Of a DNA stretch of 64,000 nucleotides, positions 7,956 through 42,330 are shown one piece after another (the stretch's first letter is position 1; every line of letters begins with the position of its first letter). The notes below the pieces were generated by a model. It saw only the letters and a list, made by a program, of their open reading frames with translations. It searched no databases and had not been told where the DNA came from. The DNA lies in assembly GCF_016653405.1 (NCBI RefSeq), contig NZ_NHSN01000002.1, positions 1 to 64,000 of the forward strand, read 5' to 3'. The position numbers and the translations under genes are program-made. This DNA is from Halorhodospira halophila (GTDB lineage Bacteria; Pseudomonadota; Gammaproteobacteria; Nitrococcales; Halorhodospiraceae).

Positions 7956-7976
7956 CGCCATCTCCGGTGGGAGCGT

Positions 7977-9179: not shown

Positions 9180-9268
9180 CAGCTGATCGCCCCTGTGTCC
9201 AGAACGGTCACCCGGCACGCACCGCGAAGCCCCGCGGCCGGGCGAACCGTAAGCTGCCCACCCGGCTC

Positions 9269-9297
9269 ATGACAGTCAAGTTACAGTTTCATTGCAG
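9269..9297 (-). promoter_or_regulatory. PhoB box array for the Na/Pi cotransporter
   Basis: On the minus strand the half-sites CTGCAAT (9297-9291), CTGTAAC (9286-9280) and CTGTCAT (9275-9269) repeat at exactly 11-base pitch. These match the E. coli pho-box half-site very closely. Unlike the other arrays in the window, no convincing -10 lies 10 bases downstream (GGCAGC there); CAGCTT at 12 bases is a weak candidate. Confidence 0.82.
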
Positions 9298-17297: not shown

Positions 17298-17414
17298 TCT
17301 GACCCGCGCAGGGCGGACGATACGGCTGTCCGCCGCTCACCCCTCTCCTCACAGCACCCCCTGCCCCTAGCGCCGGCATACGCCGCGCGCCGTCTGTGCC
17401 CGCGTGCAAACAGC

Positions 17415-17481
17415 CCGCAACCGCAACGTCTTCCCACCGTTATCCGGCCGTAACCGAACCGCAACAAGCGGCTCCCATACT
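17415..17481 (+). promoter_or_regulatory. PhoB-type promoter for the ABC importer operon
   Basis: CCGTTAT (17437-17443), CCGTAAC (17448-17454) and CCGCAAC (17459-17465) are at 11-base pitch; in the same register a further CCGCAAC is at 17415-17421. CATACT (17476-17481) begins exactly 10 bases after the last site and fits a -10. The half-sites depart from CTGTCA at positions 2 and 5, so this is a somewhat weaker array than those of NptA or the pyruvate kinase. Confidence 0.72.
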
Positions 17482-17517
17482 GCCGCACTGTTCCCACCGC
17501 AACTGAACAGGTGCGCC

Positions 17518-18666
17518 ATGAGTCGACCCCAAACCTCCCGGCACGATGCCGCCCGCATCGGCCTTCCCAGCCCGGGCACGCGCAGCGCCGTGCTCGCCCT
17601 CATCGCCGGAGGTATCCTGATGACGGCGGGCTGCTCCGGCGACGAGGACGTCCCGACCGGCGCGATCGATGCCGATGACGTGGACGCCGGTCAGGTCGAG
17701 CTGCGCGACGACGTGCTCACCGTCTACCTCCACGACCACGGCGATGCCATCGCCGAGCGGTTTACCGACGACACCGGGATCCCGGTCCAGATCGTGGACA
17801 TGAGCGGCGGCGAGATCCTCGCCCGCATCGAGGCGGAGCGCGCCAACCCGCAGTGGGACGTGGTCTACGTCCAGGGCCACGGCAGCGTGAACCGCCTCTA
17901 CCAGGAGGGACAGCTCCTCGACGATGGCTGGCAGCCGGACAACGCGGCTCGCTACAACGACCTGGGCCGCCAGATCTACGACCAGGACCCGGATGCGGCG
18001 TGGTGGCCGGTCACCGTCAACGCCCCGGCGCTCCTGGTCTACAACCCGAACTGCGCCGACACGGAGCGGGTCGAGGAACTCGGCTGGGATGCCCTGCGCG
18101 ACCCGGCCTTCGAGGGCAAGGTCGGCATGCCCGACCCGGCCATCTCGGGCCCGGCCTACCCCTACGTGTCCTGGTTCTTCGAGGAGAGCATGGACGACGG
18201 CTACGCCTTCTGGGAGGACGTTTTCGACAACGGGGTCCGCATGTACCGCTCCAACAGCCCGGTGGCCGAAGCCCTGGCGGCCGGGGACATCTGCGTCGCC
18301 GGCCTTGAGGAGCCGAACACCTACGGCGAGGTGGAGAAGGACGCCGACATCGAGATCGTCTACCCCGCGGAGGGCACCCCCGGGGCCGCCCGCGCCACCG
18401 GGATCAGCGCCGACACCACCGTGGCCGATGACGCCCGGGCCTTCATCGAGTGGATGCTCGAGGCGGACACCCAGACCTATCTCACCCAGATCGAGCACCG
18501 CAACAAGTACTTCGTGCCGCTGGTCGAAGGCGCCGATCCCAACGAGCTGCTGCCGCCGAACGAGTTTCTCGACCGTGTGACCCCTTACGAGTTCACGGAC
18601 TACGAGTGGGCCGGCGACGTCGAGAACGAGATCAAGCAGTGGTTCGCCGACCAGTCGGGGTCGTGA
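17518..18666 (+). CDS. ABC importer substrate-binding lipoprotein (iron/2-aminoethylphosphonate type)
   Basis: A 382-residue exported protein. A long hydrophobic leader ends in the lipobox MTAGC, so the mature protein is probably a lipoprotein anchored at the outer face of the inner membrane. The rest resembles the periplasmic binding proteins of Fe3+ and 2-aminoethylphosphonate importers (VYLHDHGDAIAERFTDDTG; WPVTVNAPALLVYN; RSNSPVAEALAAGD). The acidic residue content is high. Its PhoB-type promoter favours a phosphorus compound over iron. Start at ATG 17518; a weak ribosome site. The ligand is not proven. Confidence 0.85.
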   Translation: MSRPQTSRHDAARIGLPSPGTRSAVLALIAGGILMTAGCSGDEDVPTGAIDADDVDAGQVELRDDVLTVYLHDHGDAIAERFTDDTGIPVQIVDMSGGEILARIEAERANPQWDVVYVQGHGSVNRLYQEGQLLDDGWQPDNAARYNDLGRQIYDQDPDAAWWPVTVNAPALLVYNPNCADTERVEELGWDALRDPAFEGKVGMPDPAISGPAYPYVSWFFEESMDDGYAFWEDVFDNGVRMYRSNSPVAEALAAGDICVAGLEEPNTYGEVEKDADIEIVYPAEGTPGAARATGISADTTVADDARAFIEWMLEADTQTYLTQIEHRNKYFVPLVEGADPNELLPPNEFLDRVTPYEFTDYEWAGDVENEIKQWFADQSGS

Positions 18667-18670
18667 GCCG

Positions 18671-20470
18671 GTGCAGGCAGCTCGACTCTCTCAGGTAGCA
18701 ACCAGCACCATCGCCCGGCAGGCGGCCCGCAGCGGGGCCGCATTGACCGGGCGGTGGCGCCGCCTTTCCGGCCCGGGGGACCGATCAGTGGCTTGGGCGG
18801 TGACGGCCGCCCTGATCGTTTTGGTCGGACTCCCGCTGGCCGCCATGCTGGCCCACCTGGCCTTCCCGCAGCTGTACCTGGGCAGCCTGCAACTCGGCAA
18901 TTTCGATCTGTTCAGCGACCTGTGGGAACGCAGCCTCTGGCGCAACGCGGTGCGCAACTCGCTGCTGCTCGGCCTTGGGACGATGGTCCTCGGCGCGGCC
19001 ATTGGCGTCGGACTCGCCTGGATGCGGCACCACTGGCGCTTCCCGGGATCGGGGTTGATCGACTTCTCCGCCTGGTTCGTCCTGGTGATGCCGTCGTTCA
19101 TCATCGCCCAGGGCTGGGTGCTCTTCGCACGCAGCGGCGGCACCGCCTCGCTGCTCGGCATCCCCTGGGCCGGGGACGTCATCTTCTCGTTGCCGGGGCT
19201 GATCCTGGTGATGAGCCTGGCCAACTTCCCGCTGGCCTACCTGGCCTTCAGCGCCGCGCTGCAGTGGGACGTCAGCCGGTACGAGCACGCCGCCCGGCTC
19301 TCCGGCGCGCGGCCGTGGACGGTTTTCCGCGCCATCCGGCTACCACTGCTCCTCCCGGCCCTGCTGGCCGCTGGCATCCTCGTCTTCGTGGATACCATCG
19401 GTGACTTCGGGCTGCCAGCCGCCTTCATCTCGGTGTTCCGTTTCCCGCTCATTCCCTACGTCATCCGCACCGAGATCCAGACCGTACCCGTGTCTTTTGA
19501 GGGGGCCGCCGTGCTGGCCGCGGTCCTGGTCTCGATGGTTGCCGTGGCGATCGCCATCCAGATCCGTGTGCTGCGCGGCGGCGGCCGGGATTTCCTCACC
19601 GCGGCGGCAACGCCGCGGCAGCGCCCCAGGCCCCGGTTCTGGCCGCTCCTCTCGGCGATCACCTTCGCGTTCCTCGGCCTGGCGGTCTTCGCCCCGCTGG
19701 GAACCAGCCTCTCCGTCTCGTTCATGGAGCGCTACGGGGCCGGCCTGAGCTGGGACAATCTCACCCTGGCCAACTACCAGGCCGTGCTATCCAGCGGCTC
19801 GGCCTTGCTGCCGGCGCTCAAGAACAGCTTCGGCATCGCCTTCGCCGCTGCCGCCATCGCCCTGGTCATTGGCTTCCTGGCGGCGTATCTGCTGGCCTAC
19901 AGCGGGCACCGGCTGCGGCGCTTTATCGATGTGGCCTCGACCGTCACCCTGGCAGTTCCCGGCATTGTTCTGGCCGTAGGCTACATCTTCTGGTGGAACC
20001 AGCGCTGGCTGGCCGACATCGGCATCCAGGTCTACGGCAGCGGCTGGGCGATTGCCCTGTGCTCGGCAGCGGCCTCGGTGCCCATCGCCGTGCGGGTTTT
20101 GCTCGGCGCCATGTCCCAGACGCCGGGATCGTTCCTGTCGAGCGCCGCACTCCAGGGAGCTGGCCTGTGGACGCGCATCCGCGCCATCCTCCTGCCGCTG
20201 ACCCTCTCCGGCCTGCTCTCCGCCGGCCTCGCTGTATTCGCCACCAGTGTCTTCGACCTGGCCATCACCACCATGCTACAGCCGCCGGGCTTCCCGACCA
20301 TCCCGGTGATCATCGACGAGCATTTCCGCACGGTGCAGTACGAATGGGCGACCGCCGCTACGGTCGTGGTCTGCCTGATCACCGCAGCGGTCATCGTCAC
20401 GGTCCGTTTCAGCGCCCGACGGCTGTTCCGTAGCTACTTCGAAACCACGACGGAGACATCACGATCATGA
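18671..20470 (+). CDS. ABC importer permease with two fused membrane domains
   Basis: A 599-residue permease with about 12 membrane segments and two BPD_transp_1 modules (residues about 90-290 and 370-580), each with an EAA-type loop (YEHAARLSGARPWTVFRAIRLPLL and FLSSAALQGAGLWTRIRAILLP). This double-permease form is typical of FbpB/AfuB and PhnU/V-like systems. It follows the binding protein by four bases and overlaps the ATPase gene by four, so the three form one translationally coupled operon. Confidence 0.92.
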   Translation: MQAARLSQVATSTIARQAARSGAALTGRWRRLSGPGDRSVAWAVTAALIVLVGLPLAAMLAHLAFPQLYLGSLQLGNFDLFSDLWERSLWRNAVRNSLLLGLGTMVLGAAIGVGLAWMRHHWRFPGSGLIDFSAWFVLVMPSFIIAQGWVLFARSGGTASLLGIPWAGDVIFSLPGLILVMSLANFPLAYLAFSAALQWDVSRYEHAARLSGARPWTVFRAIRLPLLLPALLAAGILVFVDTIGDFGLPAAFISVFRFPLIPYVIRTEIQTVPVSFEGAAVLAAVLVSMVAVAIAIQIRVLRGGGRDFLTAAATPRQRPRPRFWPLLSAITFAFLGLAVFAPLGTSLSVSFMERYGAGLSWDNLTLANYQAVLSSGSALLPALKNSFGIAFAAAAIALVIGFLAAYLLAYSGHRLRRFIDVASTVTLAVPGIVLAVGYIFWWNQRWLADIGIQVYGSGWAIALCSAAASVPIAVRVLLGAMSQTPGSFLSSAALQGAGLWTRIRAILLPLTLSGLLSAGLAVFATSVFDLAITTMLQPPGFPTIPVIIDEHFRTVQYEWATAATVVVCLITAAVIVTVRFSARRLFRSYFETTTETSRS

Positions 20471-21639
20471 CCACGACGAAACCCGCCAACCGGGCACAGG
20501 CCGCCGGCGTGGAGGTGGACGCCGTCAGCCGCCACTTCGACGGGGTCCCGGCGCTGGGACAGGCCTCCCTGAACATCCACCCCGGCGAGGTAATCGCCAT
20601 CCTCGGCCCTTCCGGTTGCGGGAAGTCCACGCTGCTTCGCCTGATCGCCGGGCTCGACACGCCCAGCGCGGGGGCCATCCGCATCGGCGGCCGGTGCGTA
20701 TCCCGGCCCGGCGCCGTCGTTCCGCCCGAGCAGCGCCCCGTGAACATGGTCTTCCAGGACTTCGCCCTGTGGCCGCACATGACCGTGGAGCGCATTGTCC
20801 GCTTCGGTATGCGTCATCGCGGTGTGCCCAAGGCCGTGTGGGCTTCGCGCACGGCGGAGCTGCTCGGCATGCTCGGCCTGGACGGGATGGCACAGCGCTA
20901 CCCGCGCCAGCTCTCCGGCGGGCAGCAACAGCGGGTGGCCATCGCACGCGCGCTGGCCACGGACCCGCAGGTGCTTCTGTTCGATGAGCCCCTGTCCAAC
21001 CTCGATGCCCAGCTGCGGATCCAGATGCGCATCGAGCTCGCCGAGCTGCTGCAGCGGCTCGAGACCACTGCCATTTACGTCACCCACGATATCCACGAGG
21101 CGGTCGCCCTAGGGCACCGGCTGGTGGTCATGCGCGGCGGTCAGGTCGAGCAGGTGGGCTCGGCGAAGGAGGTCTTCCAGTCGCCGTCGAACGCCTGGAT
21201 TGCCGGCCTGGTGGGCTACAACAACCAGCTGCAGGCCGAGATCGTCGGCCACGATGGCGAAGGCCGCCTCAGCGTCCGCAGCGGCGGCACGCACATGACG
21301 GTTCGCGGCCATGCCCGGGGCGAGCCCCGCGGCACTGGAGCCACGGTCCGCATCCGTCCGGAAGCCATCCGTCCGCTGCGCGCGGACGAGCCAGCACGCG
21401 CCGACGAGCAGCTGGTCACGGCCACCGTGGAGCAGTGCTGTTTCGAGGGTTACCACTGGCGGGTGGTATGCCGCCTCGGCGATGAGCCGCTGACGTTCTT
21501 TTCCCGCCATCCGCTGGACGCCGCCGGCCCCGTGCAGCTGGCCATCGATACCGAAGGGACCTGCGCCTACAGCGACGAGCCAACCGCTGCCAACTCCGCC
21601 CCGGAAGGCGCCGCAGACTGCCAGCTGCGGACAGCCTGA
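20467..21639 (+). CDS. ABC importer ATPase (FbpC/PhnT-like)
   Basis: A 390-residue ATP-binding subunit. Walker A is GPSGCGKST (residues about 48-56), the signature is [15 protein letters not shown], Walker B is [12 protein letters not shown], and the H-loop is YVTHD. A TOBE-like domain (residues about 280-365) forms the C-terminus. It powers import by the double permease. It starts in an ATGA overlap with the permease. The substrate group is shared between Fe3+, 2-aminoethylphosphonate and related compounds; the Pho-type promoter supports a phosphorus source. Confidence 0.92.
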
Positions 21640-21652: not shown

Positions 21653-21708
21653 CTGTCATCCCCGGCTCACGCAGCCATCACGACCCTGCAACATGGCCCC
21701 CGCAGACT
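21653..21708 (+). promoter_or_regulatory. PhoB-type promoter for the GT4-PAP2-arsC operon
   Basis: Half-sites CTGTCAT (21653-21659), GGCTCAC (21664-21670), CCATCAC (21675-21681) and CTGCAAC (21686-21692) are all at 11-base pitch. CAGACT (21703-21708) begins 10 bases after the last one, the same hexamer and spacing as at pstS. A start of transcription near 21715 would fall almost on the ATG at 21717. Confidence 0.78.
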
Positions 21709-21718
21709 CGGGGGCCAT
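21693..21718 (+). promoter_or_regulatory. Hairpin covering the glycosyltransferase start
   Basis: ATGGCCCCCG (21693-21702) and CGGGGGCCAT (21709-21718) are exact complements around CAGACT. It may end read-through from the ABC operon upstream, or, in longer transcripts, hide the start codon at 21717. Its loop is the proposed -10 hexamer. Confidence 0.5.
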
Positions 21719-22922
21719 GAGCAAAAAGATCTTACCCCCGCCCGCCCCATTGCAACGCGTGAGCATCGTGTCCGAAACCTACGCCCCGGAAGCCAACGGG
21801 GTGGCCACGACGCTCTCGCACCTGGTCGCCGGTTTGAGACAGGACACGACCCGGGTTGACCTGATCGTGCCCCACCACCCGGCGCGTCCACGCGGCCAGG
21901 AGACCAACCTCTACCCGGTCTGCGGCGTTTCGATACCGGGCTACCGGGAGGTCCGTTGCGGCCTCGTCCGCCCCCGCCTCCTCGAAGAGCTCTGGCGCAG
22001 CCAAAGACCGGACGCCGTCTATATCGCCACGGAAGGGCCCCTGGGCTGGTCGGCGCAGCGGGCGGCGGCCCGCCTGCGCCTACCCACCGTCAGCGGCTTC
22101 CACACGCGCTTCGATACCTACGCCAGCCACTACGGGCTCGGCCCGCTGAACGGGGCCGTCCAGCGCTACCTGCGCCGATTCCACAATCGAACCGACCGGA
22201 CACTGGTTCCTGAAACCCGCTTGGCCGAGGCACTGACCGAGCGGGGCTACCGGAACGTCGAGACCCTCGGCCGGGGGGTCGACACCCACCGCTTCCACCC
22301 GGACCGGCGCTCGGCCACGTTGCGCGCTGGCTGGGGAGCCGATGACCGTGCCCCGGTTCTGCTCTATGTCGGGCGTCTGGCCGCGGAGAAGAACCTAGGC
22401 CTGGCCGTCGAGGCGTTCCGCCATATCCAGCACGTACAGCCGGCGGCAAGACTGGTACTTGTCGGCGACGGCCCGATGCGCGCGGAACTCCAGCGTCAGC
22501 ACCCGGATCTGATCTTCGCCGGTGTGCGCCGCGGCGCGGACCTCGCCCGCTATTACGCCTCGGCGGATCTGTTCCTCTTCCCCAGCCTGAGCGAGACCTT
22601 CGGCAACGTGACGCTCGAGGCACTGGCCAGCGGGGTGCCAGTCATCGCCTTCGACTACGCCGCTGCCCATCGCCACGTCGAGGACGCCGTCAGTGGCCGC
22701 CTTGTTGCCCGGGACGACCCCGGCGGCTGGATCGAGGCCGCCGTCGGATCCGCGCTCCTCGCTCCGGAAACCCGCCAGCGCTGGCAAAAGGCCGCCCGCG
22801 CCGAGGTTGAATCCCTGAGTTGGCAACACGTCGCTCGGCGTTTCGGCCACATCCTGGCCGAGGCCGTGCGGGGACACGATGGCCTGAACCGAGGAGGGGT
22901 CACGCTATGCAGCAAGCCCTGA
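21717..22922 (+). CDS. GT4 glycosyltransferase, probable glycolipid synthase of the phosphate-stress response
   Basis: A 401-residue GT-B glycosyltransferase. The N-terminal motif ETYAPEANGVATTL and the C-terminal E-x7-E motif (SETFGNVTLEAL) place it in family GT4, close in layout to SqdX and to lipid mannosyl/glucosyltransferases. It should transfer a sugar from a nucleotide donor, probably to diacylglycerol. The four-site PhoB-type promoter and the downstream PAP2 phosphatase support membrane lipid replacement in phosphate starvation. ATG 21717 is proposed; GTG 21759 (giving MSIVSETYAPEANG) is an alternative. Donor and acceptor are inferred, not seen. Confidence 0.82.
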   Translation: MSKKILPPPAPLQRVSIVSETYAPEANGVATTLSHLVAGLRQDTTRVDLIVPHHPARPRGQETNLYPVCGVSIPGYREVRCGLVRPRLLEELWRSQRPDAVYIATEGPLGWSAQRAAARLRLPTVSGFHTRFDTYASHYGLGPLNGAVQRYLRRFHNRTDRTLVPETRLAEALTERGYRNVETLGRGVDTHRFHPDRRSATLRAGWGADDRAPVLLYVGRLAAEKNLGLAVEAFRHIQHVQPAARLVLVGDGPMRAELQRQHPDLIFAGVRRGADLARYYASADLFLFPSLSETFGNVTLEALASGVPVIAFDYAAAHRHVEDAVSGRLVARDDPGGWIEAAVGSALLAPETRQRWQKAARAEVESLSWQHVARRFGHILAEAVRGHDGLNRGGVTLCSKP

Positions 22923-23437
22923 TCCGCTTTCAGCAGTGGGAGCTGCTTCTCTGCCTGGCGCTGCGCCGGGTCCAGCAACGGCAGTTGTCGCGCCGGGTGT
23001 TCGTCGCGGCGAGTCGTCTGGGCGACGGTGGGCTCTGGTACGGCCTCATGGCCGGTATCCTCCTGATCGAGGGGATCAACGGAGCGACTGCGGTGCTGCA
23101 CATGGCCGCAGCGGGCCTGGTCGGCACCCTGCTCTACACGCTCATCAAGCGCGGCACGCGTCGGCTCCGGCCGTATGAGGCAGACCCCTCCCTGACCCCG
23201 GGGACACCGGCCCTCGACCGCTACAGCTTCCCCTCCGGGCATACCTTGCATGCGGTCGGATTCACGCTGCTGGCTAGCGCCTACTACCCGGCCCTTGCCG
23301 TATGGCTGATCCCGGTCGCCGGGCTCATCGCCGCCTCGCGGGTGGTCCTGGGGCTCCACTACCCGACGGACGTCCTCGCCGGTGCCCTGATCGGCGCCCT
23401 GATCGCCCATGGCAGCCTGTGGCTGTTCGTGGTTTAG
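22907..23437 (+). CDS. PAP2-family lipid phosphatase
   Basis: A 176-residue membrane phosphatase with all three PAP2 motifs: K-x6-RP (KRGTRRLRP), PSGH (FPSGHTLHA) and SR-x5-H-x3-D (SRVVLGLHYPTD). Four to five membrane segments are visible. It could make diacylglycerol from phosphatidic acid for the glycosyltransferase just upstream, freeing phosphate; undecaprenyl-pyrophosphate is the other common substrate. A strong GAGGAGG ribosome site lies before the ATG at 22907, and the gene overlaps the end of the glycosyltransferase by 16 bases, so the two are co-translated. Confidence 0.9.
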   Translation: MQQALIRFQQWELLLCLALRRVQQRQLSRRVFVAASRLGDGGLWYGLMAGILLIEGINGATAVLHMAAAGLVGTLLYTLIKRGTRRLRPYEADPSLTPGTPALDRYSFPSGHTLHAVGFTLLASAYYPALAVWLIPVAGLIAASRVVLGLHYPTDVLAGALIGALIAHGSLWLFVV

Positions 23438-23476
23438 ACTCGGGAGCTACCGCGCCCCCATCCATGGAGGACGCCC

Positions 23477-23908
23477 ATGACCAACACGCGCACCCTGCTC
23501 TTCCTCTGCACCGGCAACTCCTGCCGGTCCCAGATGGCCGAAGGTTACGCCCGAACGATGGCGGACGAAAGCTGGCGGGTGCTGTCCGCCGGCATCGAAG
23601 CGCACGGCCAAAATCCCCGCGCGATCGCCGTCATGCGCGAGGACGGGGTTGATATAGCCAACCAACATTCGACCGTCTTGACCGAGGATATGCTGAACCA
23701 GGCCGATATGCTGGTCACGGTATGCGGACACGCCGACGAGCACTGCCCCGTGGTGCCCGGCCGGGTTGTTAAACACCACTGGCCGCTGCCGGACCCGGCC
23801 CGCGCCGAGGGCACCGACGAGGAGATCCTCAATGCCTTCCGTGCCGTTCGGGACGACATCAAGCAGCGTGTCCGCGCGCTCCTCACCGATCCGATCTCCA
23901 CGACCTAG
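23477..23908 (+). CDS. arsC: Arsenate reductase, thioredoxin-coupled type
   Basis: A 143-residue protein of the low-molecular-weight phosphatase fold. The phosphate loop CTGNSCRSQ (CX5R) and the redox cysteines of the S. aureus-type ArsC relay (VTVCGHADEHCPV) are all present, which separates it from ordinary tyrosine phosphatases. It reduces arsenate to arsenite. It lies 39 bases after PAP2 in the same Pho-controlled operon, fitting the need to handle arsenate that enters through phosphate carriers. Arsenite would leave through ArsB encoded 0.7 kb on. GGAGGA ribosome site. Confidence 0.92.
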   Translation: MTNTRTLLFLCTGNSCRSQMAEGYARTMADESWRVLSAGIEAHGQNPRAIAVMREDGVDIANQHSTVLTEDMLNQADMLVTVCGHADEHCPVVPGRVVKHHWPLPDPARAEGTDEEILNAFRAVRDDIKQRVRALLTDPISTT

Positions 23909-24059: not shown

Positions 24060-24569
24060 ATGAAGATCGAACGGATCATGACCCGGGAGCCGACCACGGT
24101 CCCCCCGGAAACCCCGGTTCACGAGGTGGCGAATGCGATGCTCGCGCAATGCCTGAACAGCATCGCTGTGGTCGACGCGCAGGGAACCCTGATCGGCATC
24201 GTCTCCACCGGCGATCTCACGCACAGGATGGCGGATCTGCGGGTCCCGCAGCGTGAGTCCTGGTGGGTCGAGTCCCTCTACCGCTCCCCCCTGCGCGGCG
24301 CCGCTGCCGACGAGCCGGATCGGGTGGAAGGACGCACGGCGCAGCAGGTCATGACCCGCAAGCTAGTGACCGTCACCCCGCAGGATGACACGAGCGTGGC
24401 GGCCCGTATGCTCCTCGAGCACCGCATCCATGCAGTGCCAGTCGTCAACCGCGAGGGACGTCTGCTCGGGATGGTCACGCGCTTCGATCTGATGCGCTGC
24501 CTGACGCAGCACCCGGAGTGCTGTAACCCCATGAAAGGGGATCTGCCCAGCGACGACTCATCCCCGTGA
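24060..24569 (+). CDS. Tandem CBS-domain protein
   Basis: A 169-residue soluble protein made of two CBS domains (residues about 1-60 and 95-155; IMTREPTTVPPETPVHEVANAML and VMTRKLVTVTPQDDTSVAARMLL). CBS pairs bind adenine nucleotides and regulate partner proteins. Placed 44 bases before arsB and after the 10-2-10 dyad, it may tune the arsenite pump, but such a pairing is inference. Strong AGGAGG ribosome site; the ATG is at 24060. Confidence 0.88.
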   Translation: MKIERIMTREPTTVPPETPVHEVANAMLAQCLNSIAVVDAQGTLIGIVSTGDLTHRMADLRVPQRESWWVESLYRSPLRGAAADEPDRVEGRTAQQVMTRKLVTVTPQDDTSVAARMLLEHRIHAVPVVNREGRLLGMVTRFDLMRCLTQHPECCNPMKGDLPSDDSSP

Positions 24570-24613: not shown

Positions 24614-25909
24614 ATGCTATTAGCCGCCATCGCGATCTTCGTCATCACCATCGCTCTGGTCATCTGGCAGCCCAAGGGGCTGGGCATCGGCTGGAGCGCG
24701 ACCGCCGGTGCCCTGGTGGCGCTGGTCACCGGCGTGGTCGAGCTAAGCGATGTCCCCGTGGTGGTGGATATCGTCTGGAACGCCACCCTGACCTTCGTGT
24801 TCATCATCATCATCTCGCTGCTGCTGGACGAGGCCGGATTCTTCGAATGGGCGGCGTTACACGTGGCGCGCTGGGGCAAGGGCAGCGGCCTGCGCCTCTA
24901 CGCCTTTATCATCTTCCTGGGCGCAGCAGTGGCGGCGATCTTCGCCAACGACGGCGCTGCACTCATGCTGACCCCGATCGTCCTTGAGATGCTCTTGGCG
25001 CTCGGCTTTTCGGCCGGTGCGGCGTTCGCCTTCGTCATCGCGGCGGGGTTCATCGCCGATACCGCCTCGCTGCCGCTGGTCATCTCCAACCTGGTGAACA
25101 TCGTCTCGGCGGACTTCTTCGATATCGGCTTCAACCAGTATGCGATGGTCATGGTGCCGGTGACGGTGGTCTCGGTGCTCGCCTCACTGGCCGTGCTCAC
25201 GCTCTTCTTCCGCAAGCAGATCCCGCGGGTCTACTCCGCGGCAGGCCTGCGCGAGCCGCGTCAGGCAATCAAGGATCCGGCCGTGTTCAGGGCCGGCTGG
25301 GGCGTACTGGCCCTGCTGCTTCTAGCCTTTCTGGTGATCGAGCCGATGGGCGTGCCCATCTCCGCGATTGTCGGCGCCGGTGCGGCCATCCTGCTGGCCG
25401 TTGCCGCCCGGGGCCACGCCATTGCCACTCGACAGGTGCTGAAGAACGCGCCGTGGCAGATCGTGATCTTCTCGGTAGGGATGTACCTGGTCGTCTACGG
25501 GCTACGCAACCAGGGGCTGACCGCCGAGATCGCCGGCGCGCTCGATGTCATCGCCGCCCAGGGCGTGGTCGTGGCGACGCTCGGCACCGGCTTCATCGCC
25601 GCGTTCCTCGCCTCGGTGATGAACAACATGCCCGGTGTCATGGTGGTGGCACTCTCCATCGATGAGTCCGGCGCCAGCGGGTTGGTCAAGGAAGCCATGA
25701 TCTACGCCAACGTCATCGGCTCGGACCTGGGGCCGAAGATCACCCCGATCGGCAGTCTGGCCACGCTGCTCTGGCTACACGTACTGGCCCGCAAAGGGGT
25801 GCACATCACCTGGGCGAAATACTTCGCCATCGGCATCGTCATCACCCCGCCGGTGCTGTTCGTCACGCTCCTCGCCCTCGCCGGCTGGCTTCAGGTGCTC
25901 CACGGCTAG
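24614..25909 (+). CDS. arsB: Arsenite efflux pump
   Basis: A 431-residue polytopic protein of the ArsB family (ion transporter superfamily) with about 12 segments. Family stretches include [35 protein letters not shown] and [13 protein letters not shown], with the conserved NDG and NNMP loops. It expels arsenite (and antimonite) using the membrane potential. Together with arsC 0.7 kb upstream it gives arsenate resistance. The last stretch of the gene converges on phoU, with a GC hairpin between. Confidence 0.92.
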
Positions 25910-26057: not shown

Positions 26058-26798
26058 CTAATGCCGGTCTCCGGTGGCCTCCTGAGCCATCTGCTCGAAG
26101 CTCGTGTGGCGCACGTTCTTGCCGCGGACGAAGTAGACCACGTACTCGCAGATATTGCGGGCGCGATCCCCGATGCGTTCCAGCGAACGAGCTGTCCAGA
26201 CCACGTCCATGACCCGCGGTACGGTCTCCGGACTGCGCATCATCTGCTCCATCAGACGGTGGACAATCACCTCGTACTGACTGTCCGCCTGGATGTCCTG
26301 CTGCGCCACGCGCACGGCCTGCTCGACATCCATGCGGGCGAAGGCATCCAGTGAACCGCGCAGCATCCCCTGCACATGCTCGCCCATCTCGCCGAGTTCC
26401 TCGATCGGACCGTTCTGCCGGTCCAGCTCGAGGAAGTGCAGCGCCATCCGCCCGATCCGCTCCGCCTCGTCGCCGATGCGCTCCAGATCCGTGATGGTCT
26501 TGATCACCGCCATGACCAGGCGCAGATCCGAGGCGGTGGGCTGTCGGCGGACCAGGATCTGCGTGCAGTCCTCGTCCAGGGCCACCTCCAGGGCGTTGAT
26601 CTGGTAGTCACTGGTTACCACCTTCTCCGCCAGTTCCGTCCGCGACTCGGCCATCGCCGCCACGGCATCGGCCAGTTGCTGCTCCACCAGGCCGCCCATG
26701 CTCAGAACGCGGTCGTGGATCGCCTCTAGCTCGGCGTTGAACCGCTGGGAGATGTGCTCCTGGAAGAAGCTCTTTTCGGTGGGGTTCTCGTCGGTCAT
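26058..26798 (-). CDS. phoU: Phosphate-signalling protein PhoU
   Basis: A 246-residue PhoU with two three-helix repeats and both metal-site signatures (ITDLERIGDEAERIGRMA near residue 95 and ARSLERIGDRARNICEYVVY near 205). PhoU links the Pst importer with the PhoR kinase and keeps the Pho regulon off when phosphate is plentiful. It is the last gene of pstC-pstA-pstB-phoU, starting 11 bases after pstB. Length and motifs are typical. Confidence 0.97.
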   Translation of the reverse strand: MTDENPTEKSFFQEHISQRFNAELEAIHDRVLSMGGLVEQQLADAVAAMAESRTELAEKVVTSDYQINALEVALDEDCTQILVRRQPTASDLRLVMAVIKTITDLERIGDEAERIGRMALHFLELDRQNGPIEELGEMGEHVQGMLRGSLDAFARMDVEQAVRVAQQDIQADSQYEVIVHRLMEQMMRSPETVPRVMDVVWTARSLERIGDRARNICEYVVYFVRGKNVRHTSFEQMAQEATGDRH

Positions 26799-26809
26799 CG
26801 GCGGTCTCC

Positions 26810-27667
26810 TCAGCCGTAACGGCCGGTGATGTAATCCTCGGTCTGCTTCTTGCCGGGATTGGTGAAGAGCGTATCGGTATCGTTGTGCTCAATGAGCTCA
26901 CCGAGGTAGAGGAACGCCGTGAAATCCGACACCCGCGCGGCCTGCTGCATGTTGTGGGTGACGATGGCGATGGTGTAGCGCTCCTTGAGTTCGAACATCA
27001 ACTCCTCGATCTTGAGCGTAGCCAACGGATCGAGGGCTGATGCCGGTTCGTCGAGCAGCAGCACCTCCGGCTCCACGGCGATGGCCCGGGCAATGACGAG
27101 CCGCTGCTGCTGCCCACCGGAGAGGCCGAAGGCGTTCTCGTGGAGCCGGTCCTTGACCTCGTCCCAGAGTGCGGCCCGGCGCAACGACTTCTCGACAACC
27201 TCATCGAGGGTACGGCGATTGCGCACGCCCTGAAGACGCAGACCGTAGGCCACATTCTCGTAGATCGACTTCGGGAAGGGGTTCGGCTTCTGGAAGACCA
27301 TGCCGACCCGGCGGCGCAGCTCGGGCACATCCATGCGCCGGGCGTGGATCTCCTCGCCGTCGAGGGTGATGCGCCCTTCGATCCGGCAGTTGTCGATCAG
27401 GTCATTCATCCGGTTGAAACACCGCAGAAGCGTCGACTTCCCGCAACCTGAAGGCCCGATGAAGGCGGTGATCTGGCCTCGGGGGATCTCCAGGTCGACC
27501 CCTTTGAGCACCTGCTCCTCCCCGTACCAGAGGCTGAGCTCATGGGTCTGAAGACAGATATCGCTGCCCAACCGTTTTCTCGCCGCCGAGCCATCCCGCT
27601 GGCGGTCCTGCAGCGCCTCGCTGCTGAAACCGTGGGTGGGTGCGGACGGGGAATTGGTGGCGTTCAT
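26810..27667 (-). CDS. pstB: Phosphate ABC importer ATPase
   Basis: A 285-residue ATPase. Walker [10 protein letters not shown], signature [33 protein letters not shown] and the PstB-specific [16 protein letters not shown] segment are all seen. A non-conserved basic tail of about 35 residues precedes the domain. It powers phosphate uptake through PstC/PstA. It lies 11 bases from each neighbour in the pst operon. Confidence 0.97.
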
Positions 27668-27678
27668 AGCTCCCTCTC

Positions 27679-29355
27679 TTAATCGCTCTCGGCCTTGTAC
27701 TTCTCGCGCAGGAAGTTGCGGATCGAGATGGCCGTCAGGTTGAGCACAATGATGACCAGCACCAGGATCAGCGCCGTGGCGTAGACCAGCGGCCGCCCGG
27801 CCTCGACGTTGGGGCTCTGGAAGCCGACGTCGAAGATGTGAAAGCCCAGGTGCATGAAACTGCGCTCCAGGTGGATGTACGGGAAACTCCCATCCACCGG
27901 CAGCTGCGGGGCCAGCTTGACCACGCCGACAAGCATCAGCGGCGCTACCTCGCCGGCCGCACGGGCCACGGCCAGGATCAGCCCGGTGATCATCGCCGGC
28001 GTCGCCAACGGGATCACCACCCGCCAGAGCATCTCCGCCTTAGTCGCCCCCAGGGCCAACGCCCCTTGCCGGATCGACCCGGGGATGCGCGAGAGACCCT
28101 CCTCGGTGGAGACGATCACCACCGGCAGGGTCAGCAGCGCCAGGGTCAGCGAGGCCCAGAGCACGCCGCCCTTGCCGAAGGTTGGCGCCGGTAGGCGCTC
28201 CTCGAAGAAGAGCTGGTCCACTCCACCCCCGACGAAGTAGACGAAGAAGCCGAGGCCGAAGACGCCGAAGACGATGGACGGGACGCCGGCGAGGTTGTTC
28301 ACCGAGATGCGGATCATCCGCGTCAGCGGCCCCTGCCGGGCGTACTCACGCAGGTAGATCGCCGCGAGCACGCCGAAGGGTGTGACAAAGACGGCCATGA
28401 CGATGGTCATCAGCACCGTGCCGAAGATCGCCGGCAGGATGCCGCCCTCGGTGTTGGCCTCCCGCGGATAGCCGCTGACGAAGTCCCAGAAGTCGCCGAC
28501 GTAGAAGCGGGCCTTGTCCCAGACGCTCATGGCGTTCGGTCGCCATGGCTTGACCACGTCGCCCATGGCGATGACCACCTCTTTACCCGCGGCGGTCTCC
28601 ATCCCCACGGCGTAGCGTCCGACCTCCTCGAGCAGCTCGTTGCGCCGCTGCTCGAGCTCCGCGTACTCCCCCTCCCAGCGGTCCCGTTCGGCCTCCAGGG
28701 CCTCGAGCTGCTCGGTGCGCTCCTCCTCGCTCAGGGTTAGGTCGGCCTCGATTTGGCGCTCGGTCAGGCGGATCTCCTCGATCTCGGCGTTAACCGCGCC
28801 GATCTCCACGCGCTCGATGCGCTGGATCTCCTGGATCCGCGAGCGATTCTCCTCGTAGAGCTCCAGGAAACGGTCCCAGGTCGCGTCGCCCTCGTCGCTG
28901 ACCGTCTCGACCTTCTCCCCGTCGATGCGCACGTCGCGCAGGTAGCCGATGAAATCCCCCCACTGCCGGCGCTCGATGACCACCGCATCCTTGGGGTGAC
29001 TCCACTCCGACATGTTGACGTCGGCGTACCAAACAAAGTCCCGGCCATCGACGTCCCGGTTGCCGCGCTTGATCCGGTAGCGGGTGATCAGCGCATCGTC
29101 GTCGTCCACCTCGAAGCCGCGCTCGCGGGCCGCCGGCGCGGTCAGGGTCTCCGCGGCGTCGACCTCGCCGAGAACCTGCTCGGCGTCACGCCCGGGCTCT
29201 TGGTATTCGAAGGCCACGACATTGCTGGGCCAGAAGTGCTGCAGGCCGTTGTAGGCAATATGGCCGATGAGCCCCGCCACCATGACCAGTGATACGGCCA
29301 CGGCCCCGGCGTTGAGCCAAATCCAGGGTGTTCCCTTGTTGAACCAGTCGCGCAT
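27679..29355 (-). CDS. pstA: Phosphate ABC importer permease PstA, long form
   Basis: A 558-residue PstA, about twice the length of E. coli PstA. The first membrane segment is followed by a large periplasmic insert (residues about 45-270) containing a coiled coil rich in Glu/Arg/Leu (residues about 165-235), corresponding to the DUF3333-type N-terminal region. The standard permease domain follows (residues about 300-550; [31 protein letters not shown]). It forms the channel with PstC. The long form is known in several gammaproteobacteria; the insert's role is not established. Confidence 0.95.
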
Positions 29356-29374
29356 CGTTGCGGCATCCTCCGTA

Positions 29375-31708
29375 TCAGAGCGCGCTGTACTTCTTGCGCA
29401 GGCGGTGGCGCACGATCTCCGCCACGGTGTTGACCGCGAAGGTCAGGACGAAGAGCACTAAGGCGGCAAGGAATAGGATCCGGTAGTGGCTGCTCCCCTG
29501 CGCGGTCTCCTTCATCTCCACAGCGATGTTGGCCGAGAGCGTGCGCATGCCCTCGAAGAGGTTGAAATTGGTGACTGGCGAGTTGCCGGTGGCCATGACC
29601 ACGATCATGGTCTCGCCGACGGCCCGGCCGAAGCCGATCATCACCGCCGAAAAGATGCCGGGGCTGGCCGTCAGCAGGACCACGGTGGCCACTGCCTGCC
29701 AGGGCGTCGCGCCGAGCGCCAAGGCCCCCTGCGAGAGGTGGCGCGGCACGTTGAACACCGCATCCTCGGAGATGGAGAAGATCGTCGGGATCACCGCGAA
29801 GCCCATGGCGATCCCCACAACCAAGGCGTTGCGCTGGTCGTAGTCGATCCCCTGATTGGTGAGCCACTGGCGCATATCACCGCCGAAGAAAGCGAGCTCC
29901 ATGTAGGGACTGGCGGTGACGCCGAGCCACCCGACCCCGATCACCACCGGGATCAGCAGTGCGGCCTCCCAGCCCGGCGGCACCCGGCTGCGGATGCCCT
30001 CGGGGAAGACCCGGGTCCACAGCCAAGCGGCCATCACCATGGCGATAGGCAGGGCGATCAGGATGGAGAAGACTGCCGGGAGATTCCGCTCGAAAAACGG
30101 CGCAGCCCAGAGCCCCGCGAGGAAGCCGAGGATGACCGTTGGCAGCGCCTCCATGATCTCGATGGCGGGCTTGGTCATCTGCCGCATGCGTGCGGACATG
30201 AAGTAGGCCGAGTAGATCGCCCCGAGGATCGCGATGGGTGTCGCAAAGAGCATGGCGTAGAACGCCGCCTTCAACGTGCCGATGGTCAGCGGTACCAGCG
30301 AGAACTTGGGCTCGAACTCGTCGGTAGCGGAAGATGACTGCCAGACGTAGGCGGGCGCATCGCGGCCCTCGTACCAGACCCTCTGCCACAGGGCCTTGAA
30401 CGAAACCTCCGGGTGCGGGTTGTCGACGTCCAGGTAGTTGAACCGCTCGTTGGCACCGACGGCCATCAGCGCGTTCTGTCGCGGCGCCATCGACAGCGCG
30501 GCCACTGAGGGGCCGCCCTCCAGCGCCAGCTGCGTCAACGTGCGCGACGAGGTGGCATAGTGCAGCTGCAGCGTGCCGTCGGCGGCGCCGGTAGCGAAGC
30601 CTTTACGGGCGTGCTCCGGTGCGATGCCGGTCACCGCCGCCGGGTGGCCATCGAAGGTACGGATGCGCGTAAGCTGCCGATCCCCCGCCTCGTCCCGGGT
30701 CACCATGTATTGTGACACCGATCCGTCGGAGCCACCGGCGATCATCGACGCGGCCCCGAGCAGGAACTGAAGCTGCGTGACCTCGGCATCGTCCCCCTCG
30801 ATTGCGCGCACTGTGCCGACCAGACGCGGGCGGTTCAGGTTTGAGACATCGAAGTAGTGCAACCGCCCCTTGGCATCGCCAACGAAGAGGTTACGCATGG
30901 TGGTGTCGAGGAGGATCCGTGTGACCTCGATTCCCGACTCCGGCCAAGGCAGGTCGTAGACCTCGCGCTCAACGGTCGCCTCACCGGTGATGAAGTCCGT
31001 CTCCTCCTCGAAGAGCACCAGGCGCAGGGCCTCCTGCTCGTTGCTGGCACCCACCACGGCGGAGCCACGGCTCCCCCGCTGGACCCCGATGGCGTCGAGC
31101 GGATGGCCATCCTCGCCCCAGATCGCCAGGGGTTCGCCCTCGCCCTCCGGATAGGTGATCGACGGGGTGACCTGGCGCTCGCCGTCCGGGTAGCTGACGT
31201 CGTAGTCGTGACGGGCGAAGATCGCCGTGCCGTCATCGAGGCCGTAGCCCACCAGCCGATGGCGGGCTTCGGCCGTGTCGAAACTGCGGATCTGTGCCCC
31301 GGACGGCTTGTTCAGCTGCCCCTGCTCGATCAGCTCGCCGCTGCGGGGGTCGAAAAAGGCGTAACCGGCCCGGTCGGTGAAGCGCACCCCGACCTCGCGG
31401 TAGCGCTCCATGGCGACGTGGACCGTCTCGCCAAGTTCCGGTCCGCCGGGGGCGGCGTAGCTGGCGGCGGGCCGGATCTCCGGCTCGCCAAAGATGGGCA
31501 TGGTTTCGGAGAAGAGGTAGACGAACATCAGCGCCAGCGCGCCGATGACCCCCACGCCGAAGGTGGCCACGCTGCCACGACTGATCCAGTCCTTGGCCCC
31601 GCGCCAGCGGCGCAGGCGGCGCCGACGGGCCGCGTCCGGCAGGCCCCGGGACGGACCCTTGCCACTGCCTCGGCCCGGTTCGGTGAGCCCTGTCGTCTGA
31701 TCGCTCAT
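29375..31708 (-). CDS. pstC: Phosphate ABC importer permease PstC, long form
   Basis: A 777-residue PstC. After one membrane segment (residues about 45-70) comes a periplasmic insert of about 380 residues with repeats resembling a beta-propeller (for example GYGLDDGTAIFARHDY, VGDAKGRLHYFDVSN, ATGAADGTLQLHYA), then the usual permease domain (about 490-770). It pairs with the long PstA. The start MSDQTTG at 31708 was preferred to 31723. It has its own PhoB-type promoter and leads pstC-pstA-pstB-phoU, separate from pstS. Confidence 0.95.
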   Translation of the reverse strand: MSDQTTGLTEPGRGSGKGPSRGLPDAARRRRLRRWRGAKDWISRGSVATFGVGVIGALALMFVYLFSETMPIFGEPEIRPAASYAAPGGPELGETVHVAMERYREVGVRFTDRAGYAFFDPRSGELIEQGQLNKPSGAQIRSFDTAEARHRLVGYGLDDGTAIFARHDYDVSYPDGERQVTPSITYPEGEGEPLAIWGEDGHPLDAIGVQRGSRGSAVVGASNEQEALRLVLFEEETDFITGEATVEREVYDLPWPESGIEVTRILLDTTMRNLFVGDAKGRLHYFDVSNLNRPRLVGTVRAIEGDDAEVTQLQFLLGAASMIAGGSDGSVSQYMVTRDEAGDRQLTRIRTFDGHPAAVTGIAPEHARKGFATGAADGTLQLHYATSSRTLTQLALEGGPSVAALSMAPRQNALMAVGANERFNYLDVDNPHPEVSFKALWQRVWYEGRDAPAYVWQSSSATDEFEPKFSLVPLTIGTLKAAFYAMLFATPIAILGAIYSAYFMSARMRQMTKPAIEIMEALPTVILGFLAGLWAAPFFERNLPAVFSILIALPIAMVMAAWLWTRVFPEGIRSRVPPGWEAALLIPVVIGVGWLGVTASPYMELAFFGGDMRQWLTNQGIDYDQRNALVVGIAMGFAVIPTIFSISEDAVFNVPRHLSQGALALGATPWQAVATVVLLTASPGIFSAVMIGFGRAVGETMIVVMATGNSPVTNFNLFEGMRTLSANIAVEMKETAQGSSHYRILFLAALVLFVLTFAVNTVAEIVRHRLRKKYSAL

Positions 31709-31747
31709 GATCTTTGATCGCACCCTGCGAGAAATGAACGCTGACGC

Positions 31748-31792
31748 AGCCTAAGGGGGGCGGATGACGGTTTCGTGACGAAACGATGAACA
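31748..31792 (-). promoter_or_regulatory. PhoB-type promoter for pstC-pstA-pstB-phoU
   Basis: On the minus strand TGTTCAT (31792-31786), TCGTCAC (31781-31775) and CCGTCAT (31770-31764) are at 11-base pitch, and TAGGCT (31753-31748) begins exactly 10 bases after the last. The predicted leader before pstC is about 33 bases. Confidence 0.85.
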
Positions 31793-31815
31793 CCCGCTGA
31801 ACCCCCTAAACAGAA

Positions 31816-31838
31816 CGGGCCGGCGTAGGGCCGGCCCG
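31816..31838. terminator. Perfect 9-base hairpin after pstS
   Basis: CGGGCCGGC (31816-31824) and GCCGGCCCG (31830-31838) pair exactly around five bases. Together with the next hairpin it separates pstS from the pstC promoter. No T-run. Confidence 0.6.
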
Positions 31839-31857
31839 CGTAGCGCTCAACGATGGT

Positions 31858-31879
31858 GCCGGGGCGTATGGGCCCCGGC
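31858..31879. terminator. Perfect 8-base hairpin after pstS
   Basis: GCCGGGGC (31858-31865) and GCCCCGGC (31872-31879) pair exactly around a six-base loop, 15 bases past the pstS stop. It may terminate or protect the abundant pstS message. Confidence 0.6.
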
Positions 31880-31893
31880 CAGTGGGTTGCCCC

Positions 31894-32859
31894 TTACAGA
31901 CCGAGACGCTCGCGCTCGCGCTCGGCGGCCTGTGCGGGCATGGGGATGAAGCCGTCGCGGCGGACCACGTCCTGGCCTTCCTCGGAGAGGACCAGCTTCA
32001 GGAACTCCCGCTCGATGGGCGGCAGTTCGCCGTTGGGGTCCTTGTTCACGTAGACGTAGAGGAACCGCGACAGCGGGTAGTCGCCGCTGACCGCATTCTC
32101 GGCGTTGGGCTCGTAGAGGTTGTCCTCGTCGTCGCCCAGGGCGATCGCCTTCACACCGGAGGTCTGGTAGCCGATCCCGGAGTAGCCGATGCCGTTGAGC
32201 GACTCGGACACACCCTGGACCACCGAGGCGGAGCCCGGCTGCTCGTTGATGGCGTCCTTAAAGTCGCCGTCGCACAGGGCGTGCTCGCGGAAGAAGCCGT
32301 AGGTGCCGGAGACGGCGTTGCGGCTATAGAGCGTGATGTCCCGATTCTGCCAGGGGCCGTCCAGCCCCACGTCGCCCCAGCGCGTGACATCGCTGCCACC
32401 ACAGCGCTGCGTGGCCGAGAACATCCCGTCCACCTGCTCCATGGTCAGCCCGTCGATCGGATTGTCGCGGTTGACGAAGACCGCGATGGTGTCGATGGCC
32501 ACCCGCACCTTGGTGGGCTCGTAACCGTGGGCATCCTCAAAGCTCTCGATCTCCGAGGAACGCATATCCCGGCTCATCGGGCCGAAGTTCGCAGTCCCCT
32601 CGGTCAGCGCCACCGGCGCCGTCCCCGAGCCGGCCCCCTCGATCTCCACCGAGACGTTGGGGTAAAAATCCTGGAACTCCTCCGCCCATAGCGTCATCAG
32701 GTTGTTGAGGGTATCCGAGCCCTGACTGCCCAGGTTGCCGGAAATGCCCGAAACCCGCTCGTAATTCGGCAGGTCGTCATCCACCTCGGCAGCACCCAGC
32801 GGCCCGCCGGCCACCAGGGCCATGCTGGCCATGCCCAGGAAACAACCTCTCTTCCACAT
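31894..32859 (-). CDS. pstS: Phosphate-binding periplasmic protein
   Basis: A 321-residue exported protein. The signal peptide ([19 protein letters not shown]...) is followed by the PstS core: [38 protein letters not shown] and [11 protein letters not shown], all phosphate-site segments. It delivers phosphate to PstCAB. The ATG at 32859 was chosen because the longer reading frame runs back into phoR. It has its own PhoB-type promoter, located in the end of phoR, as expected for the most abundant Pst component. Confidence 0.96.
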
Positions 32860-32910
32860 GATCTCTGCTCCACTCAGCTTGTTCGGGAAGCCTGACTCCA
32901 GGCACGAAAG

Positions 32911-32966
32911 AGTCTGCGCCGCTTCCCTTACCGGCTCGTGAAGGCAGGGTGACGATTCGATGAAAC
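32911..32966 (-). promoter_or_regulatory. PhoB-type promoter for pstS, overlapping the phoR 3' end
   Basis: On the minus strand GTTTCAT (32966-32960), TCGTCAC (32955-32949), CCTTCAC (32944-32938) and CGGTAAG (32933-32927) run at 11-base pitch. CAGACT (32916-32911) begins exactly 10 bases after the last. The first three half-sites and part of the fourth lie inside the phoR reading frame. The leader before pstS is about 45 bases. Confidence 0.82.
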
Positions 32967-34268
32967 GCCGTCGCGCTCCAAAGTCCGCGCCGGGAAGACC
33001 AACGTGAAGGTGGATCCCTGGTCGGGCTCGCTGCGCACGTTCAGCCAACCACCGTGGCGATGCATCACGTGCTTAACGATGGCCAGCCCCAGCCCGGTAC
33101 CCCCGGTGGCGTTGGAGCGGGCCTTGTCCACCCGATAGAAACGCTCGGTGATCCGCGGCAGGTGCTCGCGCGGGATGCCGATGCCGCTGTCCGCGACCTC
33201 GCACCGGGCCGTGTGCGCATCGGCCTGCCAGCGCACGCGGATGGCACCACCGCCCGGTGTGTAGCGCACGGCGTTAGAGACCAGGTTCGCAACCGCGCTG
33301 CGCAACTCTCCGTACGATCCGCGCACGAACAGGCCCGGCTCCGCCTCAAGCTCTATCCGATGATTCTGGTCTCCAGAGAGCGTCCGCGCCTCGGCACAGA
33401 CCTCCTCGAGCAGGGCCTGCATATCCACCGGATCCTCTTCCTCAGCCAGCGACCCGGTCTCCAGTCGGGACAGGGTTAGCAGATCCTGGACCAGTCGCTG
33501 CATCCGCGCGGATTGCTCCTGCAGCAGCCGAATCGATCCCGCCCAACCCGGTTGCTCCGGGGCCAGCTCCTCACCCATCTCCTCGGCAACGCCGTAGATC
33601 ACGGTCAAGGGGGTCTTGAGCTCGTGGGACACATTGGCCACGAAGTCCCGCCGGATCGTCTCAAGCCGCTGCGTGCGGCTGATATCGCGGGCGATGAGCA
33701 ACCGCTGATTGCGGCCGTAGGGGACCAGACGAAGCTCCAGTGTGATCCGCGGGTCGACCGGCGACGGCATGGTCAGCGGCGCGCTGTGTTTGGTGGCGGT
33801 ATCCAGGAAGGCCCTGAACTCCGGTTGCCGGAGCAGGTTGCTGATACGCTGCCCCTCGTCGCCCGGCCAGGTCAGGCCGAGGAGCTCGCGTGCCGCATTG
33901 TTCCACCAGAGCAGACGATCATCGGCGTAGAGCACCATGGTGGCATCGGGCATCGCCTTGGCGGATTCCCGGTACTCGCGGATGACCCGGCGCAGCCGGT
34001 GCCTGCGCTCCCGCTGTCGGCGCTGGCGGCGATGCAGGGCATGGAACACCTCGCCCCAGACCCCGCGGGAGATGGGCGGATCCAGCTTGCGGCCGACCCG
34101 CAGCCAGCGCTCCAGCCGCCAGAGTTGATACTGGTTCCACAGGTAACCCAGCGCCAGCAGGATCGCCGCGGCCTCCACCCACCAGCCGGTGGCCAGCCCG
34201 GCAATCAACCAGACCGCCAGCGCGGCGAGGAGCGTCAGCAGAAACCCCGGCCAGGGATTGCGTGTCAT
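32928..34268 (-). CDS. phoR: Phosphate-sensing histidine kinase
   Basis: A 446-residue PhoR. Two N-terminal membrane segments (residues about 5-45) lead to a basic linker, a PAS domain (about 105-200), HisKA with the phospho-acceptor in [12 protein letters not shown], and HATPase_c with [20 protein letters not shown] and [12 protein letters not shown] boxes. It phosphorylates PhoB in phosphate starvation under PstSCAB-PhoU control. It lies 24 bases after phoB, so the pair is one operon; pstS follows with an extra promoter. Confidence 0.96.
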
Positions 34269-34292
34269 GGAATCCGCTCTCTCAGCCGCGGA

Positions 34293-34982
34293 TCAGGTCT
34301 GTTCCGAGAACCGATAGCCGGCCCCACGGACCGTCTGGACCAGGGCGTCGTGGCCCGTCGCGGCCAGGATCTTGCGCAGTCGGCGGATGTGCACATCCAC
34401 GGTGCGCTCTTCGACATAGACATTGGTGCCCCAGACCTGATCGAGCAGCTGCGTGCGGGTAAAGACGCGATCGGGATGCGCCATGAAGAATCGCAGCAGC
34501 CGGTACTCGGTGGGACCGAGTTCCAGCGACTGGCCGTGTCCGGTGACCCGGTGGCTGACCGGATCCAGGCGCAGGCCGGCCGCCTCCAGGGGGGCATCGG
34601 TTGTCGCCGGGGCCGTGCGCCGGAGGACGGCCTTGACCCGGGCAGCCAGCTCGCGCGGCGAGAACGGCTTGGTCACGTAATCATCCACCCCGGAATCGAA
34701 GCCCCGCACCTTGTCCTCCTCCTCACCCCGGGCGGTGAGCAGGATGATGGGGATCCCGCGGGTCTGCTCATCCTCCTTGAGTCCCCGCGCCCACTCGACA
34801 CCGCTGACCTGCGGCAGCATCCAGTCGAGCAGAATCAGATCCGGCGGCCGCTCGCGCAGCTGCTCCGAGGCCTGCATGGCATCAACCACCGGTATGACGT
34901 CGAACCCCTGCCGCTCGAGGGAGGTGATCAGCATCTCACGCACCGCCGAGTCGTCCTCAACCACGAGTATCCTTGCTGCCAT
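34293..34982 (-). CDS. phoB: Phosphate regulon response regulator
   Basis: A 229-residue OmpR/PhoB-type regulator. The receiver domain has the acidic pair D10-D11, phospho-acceptor D53 (ILLDWMLP) and a conserved Lys (TKPFSPREL); the winged helix has [15 protein letters not shown] and [14 protein letters not shown]. It should bind the 11-base-pitch arrays in this window. Two such half-sites and a TTTAAT -10 stand upstream of it, so it probably activates its own synthesis. Confidence 0.97.
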
Positions 34983-40377: not shown

Positions 40378-40433
40378 GTGTCATCCGAACGTCATCGGCA
40401 TTTCAAAGGCCTGTAAGCGGCATTGCATACGGT
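40378..40433 (+). promoter_or_regulatory. PhoB-type promoter for the phnDCE-like operon
   Basis: GTGTCAT (40378-40384), ACGTCAT (40389-40395), ATTTCAA (40400-40406) and CTGTAAG (40411-40417) are at 11-base pitch; TACGGT (40428-40433) begins exactly 10 bases later. The leader before phnD is about 65 bases. Confidence 0.83.
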
Positions 40434-41405: not shown

Positions 41406-41484
41406 CCCCTTGCCATCAGCGGGACAAGCCCGACCCCGGCAGCATGACCCGCTACCGGGGTCCCATTCATTGAGGTAGGCGGAT

Positions 41485-42276: not shown

Positions 42277-42330
42277 GCCGGACCGCCCTACGTCAAACAC
42301 CGCACCAATCCGTCTTCGAAGAGGTCAGCG

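Follow-up and report, generated by a model that had tools for sequence, protein, structure and literature searches.

The 64,000-nt stretch of DNA analysed here (the window) belongs to a 2.86 Mb, GC-rich gammaproteobacterial genome and contains, behind a predicted PhoB-binding array, the genes of a GT4 glycosyltransferase, a PAP2-type phosphatase and a thioredoxin-type arsenate reductase (ArsC), all of them intact and located on the forward strand. These features and their downstream neighbours are as follows:

21653-21696, + strand: four-unit PhoB (Pho box) array with an 11-bp period, assigned by scoring, shuffles and conservation in five relatives
21717-22922, + strand: GT4 glycosyltransferase of the Agt2 clade, probable diacylglycerol glucuronosyl/glucosyltransferase (Pfam GT4 domains, 48% identity to an Agt2 orthologue, tree, EX7E motif)
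22907-23437, + strand: PAP2-type membrane lipid phosphatase, probable diacylglycerol supplier (Pfam PAP2, three motifs, structure model, pairing with GT4)
23477-23908, + strand: thioredoxin-type arsenate reductase ArsC, a neighbour that is probably co-transcribed (TIGR02691, catalytic cysteines)
24060-24569, + strand: CBS-domain protein, 3' of ArsC (Pfam CBS)
24614-25909, + strand: ArsB arsenite efflux pump (Pfam ArsB, 503.8 bits; NCBIfam above cut-off)
26058-34982, - strand: phoU-pstBAC-pstS-phoR-phoB, convergent with the operon and the source of its predicted regulator (Pfam PhoU, PstB/A/C-type ABC, PBP_like_2, PhoR, response regulator)

The surroundings of the three genes are a phosphate island. 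A phosphate-type porin and phnDCE-like genes lie beyond the phoU-pst-phoBR genes, and a PhnS/U2/T-like ABC transporter that scores below NCBIfam cut-offs as well as a Na/Pi cotransporter with a PhoU-like protein are encoded upstream of GT4. The ABC transporter (17404-21639) is closest to PhnU2/PhnT2 but far below the NCBIfam cut-offs, and a PhoB-like array is present at 16971, about 430 bp before it. The strongest three-unit PhoB array in the window (near 9275-9297) lies ahead of the Na/Pi cotransporter and the PhoU-like protein (7278-9218, - strand), while a strong four-unit array (40378-40421, + strand) precedes the phnDCE-like phosphonate transporter genes (40506-43134). At 782 aa the PstC protein (29375-31723, - strand) is long, and its N-terminal half has weak WD40/beta-propeller-like matches.

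The close spacing or overlap of the genes described in an earlier note on this DNA is borne out by our analysis. GT4 and PAP2 overlap by 16 nt (GT4 end 22922, PAP2 start 22907), and the PAP2 start is preceded by a strong ribosome site, GGAGGGG. The start of ArsC (23477) is 39 nt past PAP2 and has its own ribosome site, GGAGG. Since no terminator was found between the GT4, PAP2 and ArsC genes, this short gap and the ribosome site make the co-transcription of ArsC likely.

The PhoB array and the start of GT4

The array (CTGTCATcccc GGCTCACgcag CCATCACgacc CTGCAACatgg) ends at 21696, 20 nt upstream of the GT4 start at 21717. PhoB sites were scored as 7-bp units at 11-bp spacing, with the use of a matrix that reflects the commonly known E. 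coli box and was not fitted to this genome. The four-unit score at 21653 ranks 5 among 127,922 positions of both strands of the window; the only 4 higher-scoring positions (overlapping registers included) are found before the genes of the Na/Pi cotransporter and its PhoU-like partner and before phnDCE, a result that lends support to the scoring. No more than 0.02% of dinucleotide shuffles of the region reached its three-unit score, and 0 of 5000 reached the four-unit score. Its two outer units are good and the two inner ones are weak. The five closest relatives carrying GT4 show the same four-unit arrangement, 18-20 nt upstream of the start codon and with variable spacer and flank bases; the four-site array of the earlier note is thus confirmed.

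In a wider set of 88 homologous loci, a three-unit array at shuffle p<0.05 is present upstream of the GT4 homologue in 78%, and the best two-unit PhoB scores are above those of in-gene controls (Wilcoxon 2e-13), although these loci are mutually related and the p-values overstate their independence. Like members of the Pho regulon, GT4 thus has a PhoB box array upstream, and the Pho control of GT4 and PAP2 is, as far as sequence can indicate, well supported. PhoB is predicted to bind at the array. Transcription from 21653-21696 is likewise a prediction, since no convincing -10 element was found by the array upstream of GT4.

An alternative GT4 start, ATG at 21693, was rejected in favour of ATG at 21717, because the former is located inside the fourth PhoB unit and the five relatives keep an ATG at the position of the latter. 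A perfect GC-rich hairpin (21692-21717, z -3.4) covers the ribosome site and start of GT4 and could be a block on translation of read-through transcripts. It was rejected as a conserved attenuator, as a similar stem was found in only one other relative (L002).

The glycosyltransferase and its PAP2 partner

Among plasmid records, the window GT4 best matches a protein of P. aeruginosa, with 48% identity over 374 aa, whose gene immediately follows a phospholipase C gene and plcR. Based on this position and the PAO1 gene order we take it to be PA0842, i.e., Agt2, which by sequence comparison is the closest characterised protein to the window GT4. Agt2 is a UDP-glucuronate:diacylglycerol glucuronosyltransferase that makes glucuronic acid-diacylglycerol (GADG) in E. 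coli and in vitro and can also use UDP-glucose; its deletion abolishes GADG, and its gene, like the window GT4, has an upstream Pho box and is Pho-regulated (PMC8528852). The two loci differ in that the P. aeruginosa gene has no adjacent PAP2 gene, whereas the window GT4 overlaps one.

The maximum-likelihood tree places the window GT4 inside the Agt2 clade (94/93). Agt1, which is linked to PlcP and only 37% identical to the window GT4, forms a sister clade (100/100) together with a PlcP-adjacent alphaproteobacterial glycosyltransferase, and the remaining, LPS/EPS-like GT4s of the genome are outside, on long branches. Since the branching near Agt2 is poorly resolved, we claim clade membership and not one-to-one orthology. 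The grouping with LPS or capsule transferases, which had been named beforehand as the contrary outcome, was not obtained. The protein has Pfam GT4 domains and the EX7E motif. No NCBIfam equivalog was found for it, the best model being GlcN-PG synthase (NF053787; 156 bits vs. a cut-off of 480), which makes the transferred sugar uncertain; the nearest solved structures are PimB', MshA and PimA, all with low scores. UDP-sugar dehydrogenase-family genes are present in the genome. On this sequence evidence the GT4 is probably a diacylglycerol glucuronosyl/glucosyltransferase of Agt2 type. In order relatives (L012, L015, L020, L026), GT4s of the Agt1-side clade also often adjoin PAP2, and some adjoin an AMP-binding ligase.

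The PAP2 protein retains all three catalytic motifs (KX6RP, PSGH, and SRX5HX3D), and its structure was modelled with confidence (pLDDT 95.7), with PgpB of B. subtilis and LpxE of Aquifex as fold matches. Among the NCBIfam models, undecaprenyl-diphosphatase SepP comes closest, at 50 bits vs. a cut-off of 250. PAP2 enzymes are promiscuous. Gene order points to a partnership with GT4: in 80 loci, which were collected by ranking on GT4 similarity and thus represent a sample of close, nearly all gammaproteobacterial homologues, PAP2 is near GT4 in 78, nearly always directly downstream, and in one of the two exceptions the contig stops just past GT4. The GT4-PAP2 pair is thus common across Gammaproteobacteria and not unusual, and PAP2 is the probable supplier of diacylglycerol for GT4. 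We found no paper describing an Agt2-PAP2 pair in the open-licence literature, screened mostly by title, abstract and term counts, which is not proof of novelty.

The neighbours of the pair are also related to phosphate or to phosphorus-free lipids. An OlsA-like acyltransferase gene, with OlsB-like genes before it, is located upstream on the same strand in 14 loci; genes of this type serve the synthesis of ornithine lipid, another phosphorus-free lipid. An exopolyphosphatase (Ppx) gene occupies an upstream, same-strand position in 14 loci, and phoBR, pst or a phosphate porin adjoin GT4-PAP2 in several relatives. In the window genome, the PF13444 matches, at most candidates for OlsB, are a tandem pair on contig C19.

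Source of diacylglycerol

In P. aeruginosa, PlcP supplies most of the diacylglycerol used by Agt2 (PMC8528852). A PlcP of the P. aeruginosa type was not found in the window genome, where the only match is of LpxH level (E=1e-4) and none reaches E<=1e-40, nor in the family of this genome, which gave only LpxH-level matches. The metallophosphoesterase encoded downstream in Xanthomonadales was rejected as a PlcP candidate, as it is a true LpxH (348 bits vs. 190).

We surveyed genomes with this GT4 for PlcP and for PAP2 adjacent to GT4. Among 20 assessable genomes of the class sample, nine have both, seven PAP2 only, four PlcP only and none neither; with order relatives added (30 genomes), the respective numbers are 9, 14, 7 and 0. 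The one-sided Fisher test gives a p of 0.15 when restricted to the class, 0.006 once the relatives are included and 0.047 after collapsing by genus; these values are suggestive only, since the counts were joined by hand and the groupings chosen after viewing. Strict exclusion between PlcP and PAP2 is rejected, as nine genomes carry both, and any replacement of PlcP by PAP2 is accordingly not strict. That none of the 30 genomes is devoid of both suggests that PAP2 supplies diacylglycerol. Agt2 can draw on another supply, as is evident from the GADG that persists in the plcP mutant of P. aeruginosa (PMC8528852). As PAP2 acts on lipid phosphates, its natural route would be the diversion of phosphatidic acid. 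Whether Agt2-PAP2 represents, throughout the Gammaproteobacteria, a second, PlcP-independent diacylglycerol route that diverts new phosphatidic acid rather than degrading phospholipids, and the sole such route in PlcP-free lineages, is a proposal to which we give even odds.

ArsC and the proposed function of the locus

The window ArsC scores 191.1 bits with TIGR02691 (cut-off 174.3) and has its catalytic cysteines (CX5R and the Cys83/Cys90 pair). The earlier note had considered the GT4-PAP2-ArsC grouping unusual and proposed a survey of its order. The trio was found in 0 of the 80 homologous loci, with one near case (G003, where ArsC is one ORF after PAP2), and is not a conserved operon; what had looked unusual is a common pair to which ArsC is no conserved third member. 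ArsC adjoins pst or phoU in four genomes (G003, G006, G010, and G012). In G006, which is of the same genus, GT4-PAP2 has been lost and ArsC is kept beside phoU, with synteny on both sides; the deletion removed PhnS-U-T-GT4-PAP2, leaving only a 94-bp PhnS scar (L169:10451-10544), while arsC and pst stayed, which indicates the modularity of the locus. Judged by these gene orders, ArsC is outside the lipid unit, a neighbour by local arrangement with a tie to pst/phoU. That ars genes cluster with pst and phn genes had been described before (PMC3834237).

The best explanation of the locus, to which we assign a probability of about 0.7, is that of a Pho-controlled membrane-lipid remodelling pair, GT4-PAP2, followed by an arsenate reductase gene. 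When phosphate is short, PhoB, whose gene is about 13 kb distant, would bind the four-unit array and turn on GT4 and PAP2. As to the sugar, the lipid substrate and the products, we infer that PAP2 would dephosphorylate phosphatidic acid (or a similar lipid phosphate) to diacylglycerol and free phosphate, and that the Agt2-type GT4 would move a sugar, most likely glucuronic acid from UDP-glucuronate and otherwise glucose, to this diacylglycerol. The resulting phosphorus-free glycolipid could then stand in for phospholipid. Since no PlcP was found in the genome, PAP2 would take its place, mainly diverting newly made phosphatidic acid rather than degrading existing phospholipid. ArsC, probably on the same transcript, may together with ArsB deal with arsenate entering via the induced phosphate carriers. 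Of the interpretation given in the earlier note, Pho control and lipid replacement by GT4 and PAP2 are upheld by the Agt2 clade membership, conserved arrays, pairing and ornithine-lipid and phosphate neighbours, while the inclusion of ArsC in the unit is not.

The role of PAP2 may be read differently: GT4 would make a diacylglycerol glycolipid, and PAP2, under the same Pho switch, would not feed it but salvage phosphate from PGP, undecaprenyl diphosphate or lipid A. The SepP match, the fold similarity to PgpB and LpxE, which act on PGP and lipid A, and the retention of PAP2 alongside PlcP in nine genomes are consistent with such salvage. We consider it unlikely, as the tight pairing with GT4, down to overlapping genes, and the lack of surveyed genomes having this GT4 with neither PlcP nor adjacent PAP2 favour the supplier role.

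Quite improbable is an acceptor of GT4 other than diacylglycerol, such as phosphatidylglycerol (GlcN-PG type), an LPS/exopolysaccharide intermediate or a polyprenyl carrier recycled by PAP2. While the GlcN-PG synthase model and the structures named above leave some room for it, the identity to and shared clade with the proven Agt2, to the exclusion of the genome's own LPS/EPS-like GT4s, argue for diacylglycerol, and Pho boxes and ornithine-lipid neighbours would be odd for a polysaccharide enzyme. That GT4-PAP2-ArsC is a single selected functional unit with ArsC as dedicated partner is highly improbable: the short spacings, ribosome sites, lack of terminators and the G003 arrangement agree with it, but the survey of the 80 loci, the position of ArsC by pst/phoU and its survival in G006 speak against it.

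The preferred reading, remodelling by GT4 and PAP2, makes the locus a variant of known Pho-controlled lipid remodelling and not a new three-gene system; what is new is the partnership with PAP2 and how widely it occurs, and not the grouping with ArsC. Known PlcP-Agt remodelling (Phaeobacter, Sinorhizobium, and P. aeruginosa PA3219-PA3218; PMC4796936, PMC8528852) likewise combines Pho control with a diacylglycerol-producing enzyme encoded next to a GT4. It differs in that the supplier in the window would be PAP2 and not the metallophosphoesterase PlcP, and in the sister-clade relationship of the window GT4 to Agt1. As in the arsenic/phosphate gene islands (ars with pst, phn, and pho; PMC3834237), arsC and arsB are beside pst/pho and phn genes in the window; those islands are defined by aioBA, whereas no arsenite oxidase genes were seen among the genes scanned here, and a glycolipid pair is in between.

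Lipid replacement under phosphate starvation has been traced in genomes largely by plcP. If our reading is true, the presence of a conserved Agt2-PAP2 pair under Pho control in genomes devoid of PlcP would imply that many lipid-remodelling bacteria have been overlooked. The pair would also suggest, in general terms, what kind of enzyme may be behind the unexplained diacylglycerol supply for the glucuronic acid lipid that is left in the plcP mutant of P. aeruginosa (PMC8528852). What the pathway predicts is clear and can be tested in culturable halophilic and sulphur bacteria. Two further lipid-remodelling clusters were observed among the homologous loci: one with phoB-GT4, a PlcP-like gene and an OlsF/GlsB-like acyltransferase gene (L118:7624-11991), and one with GT4, a PlcP-like gene, PAP2 and a second GT4 (L038:4983-8850).
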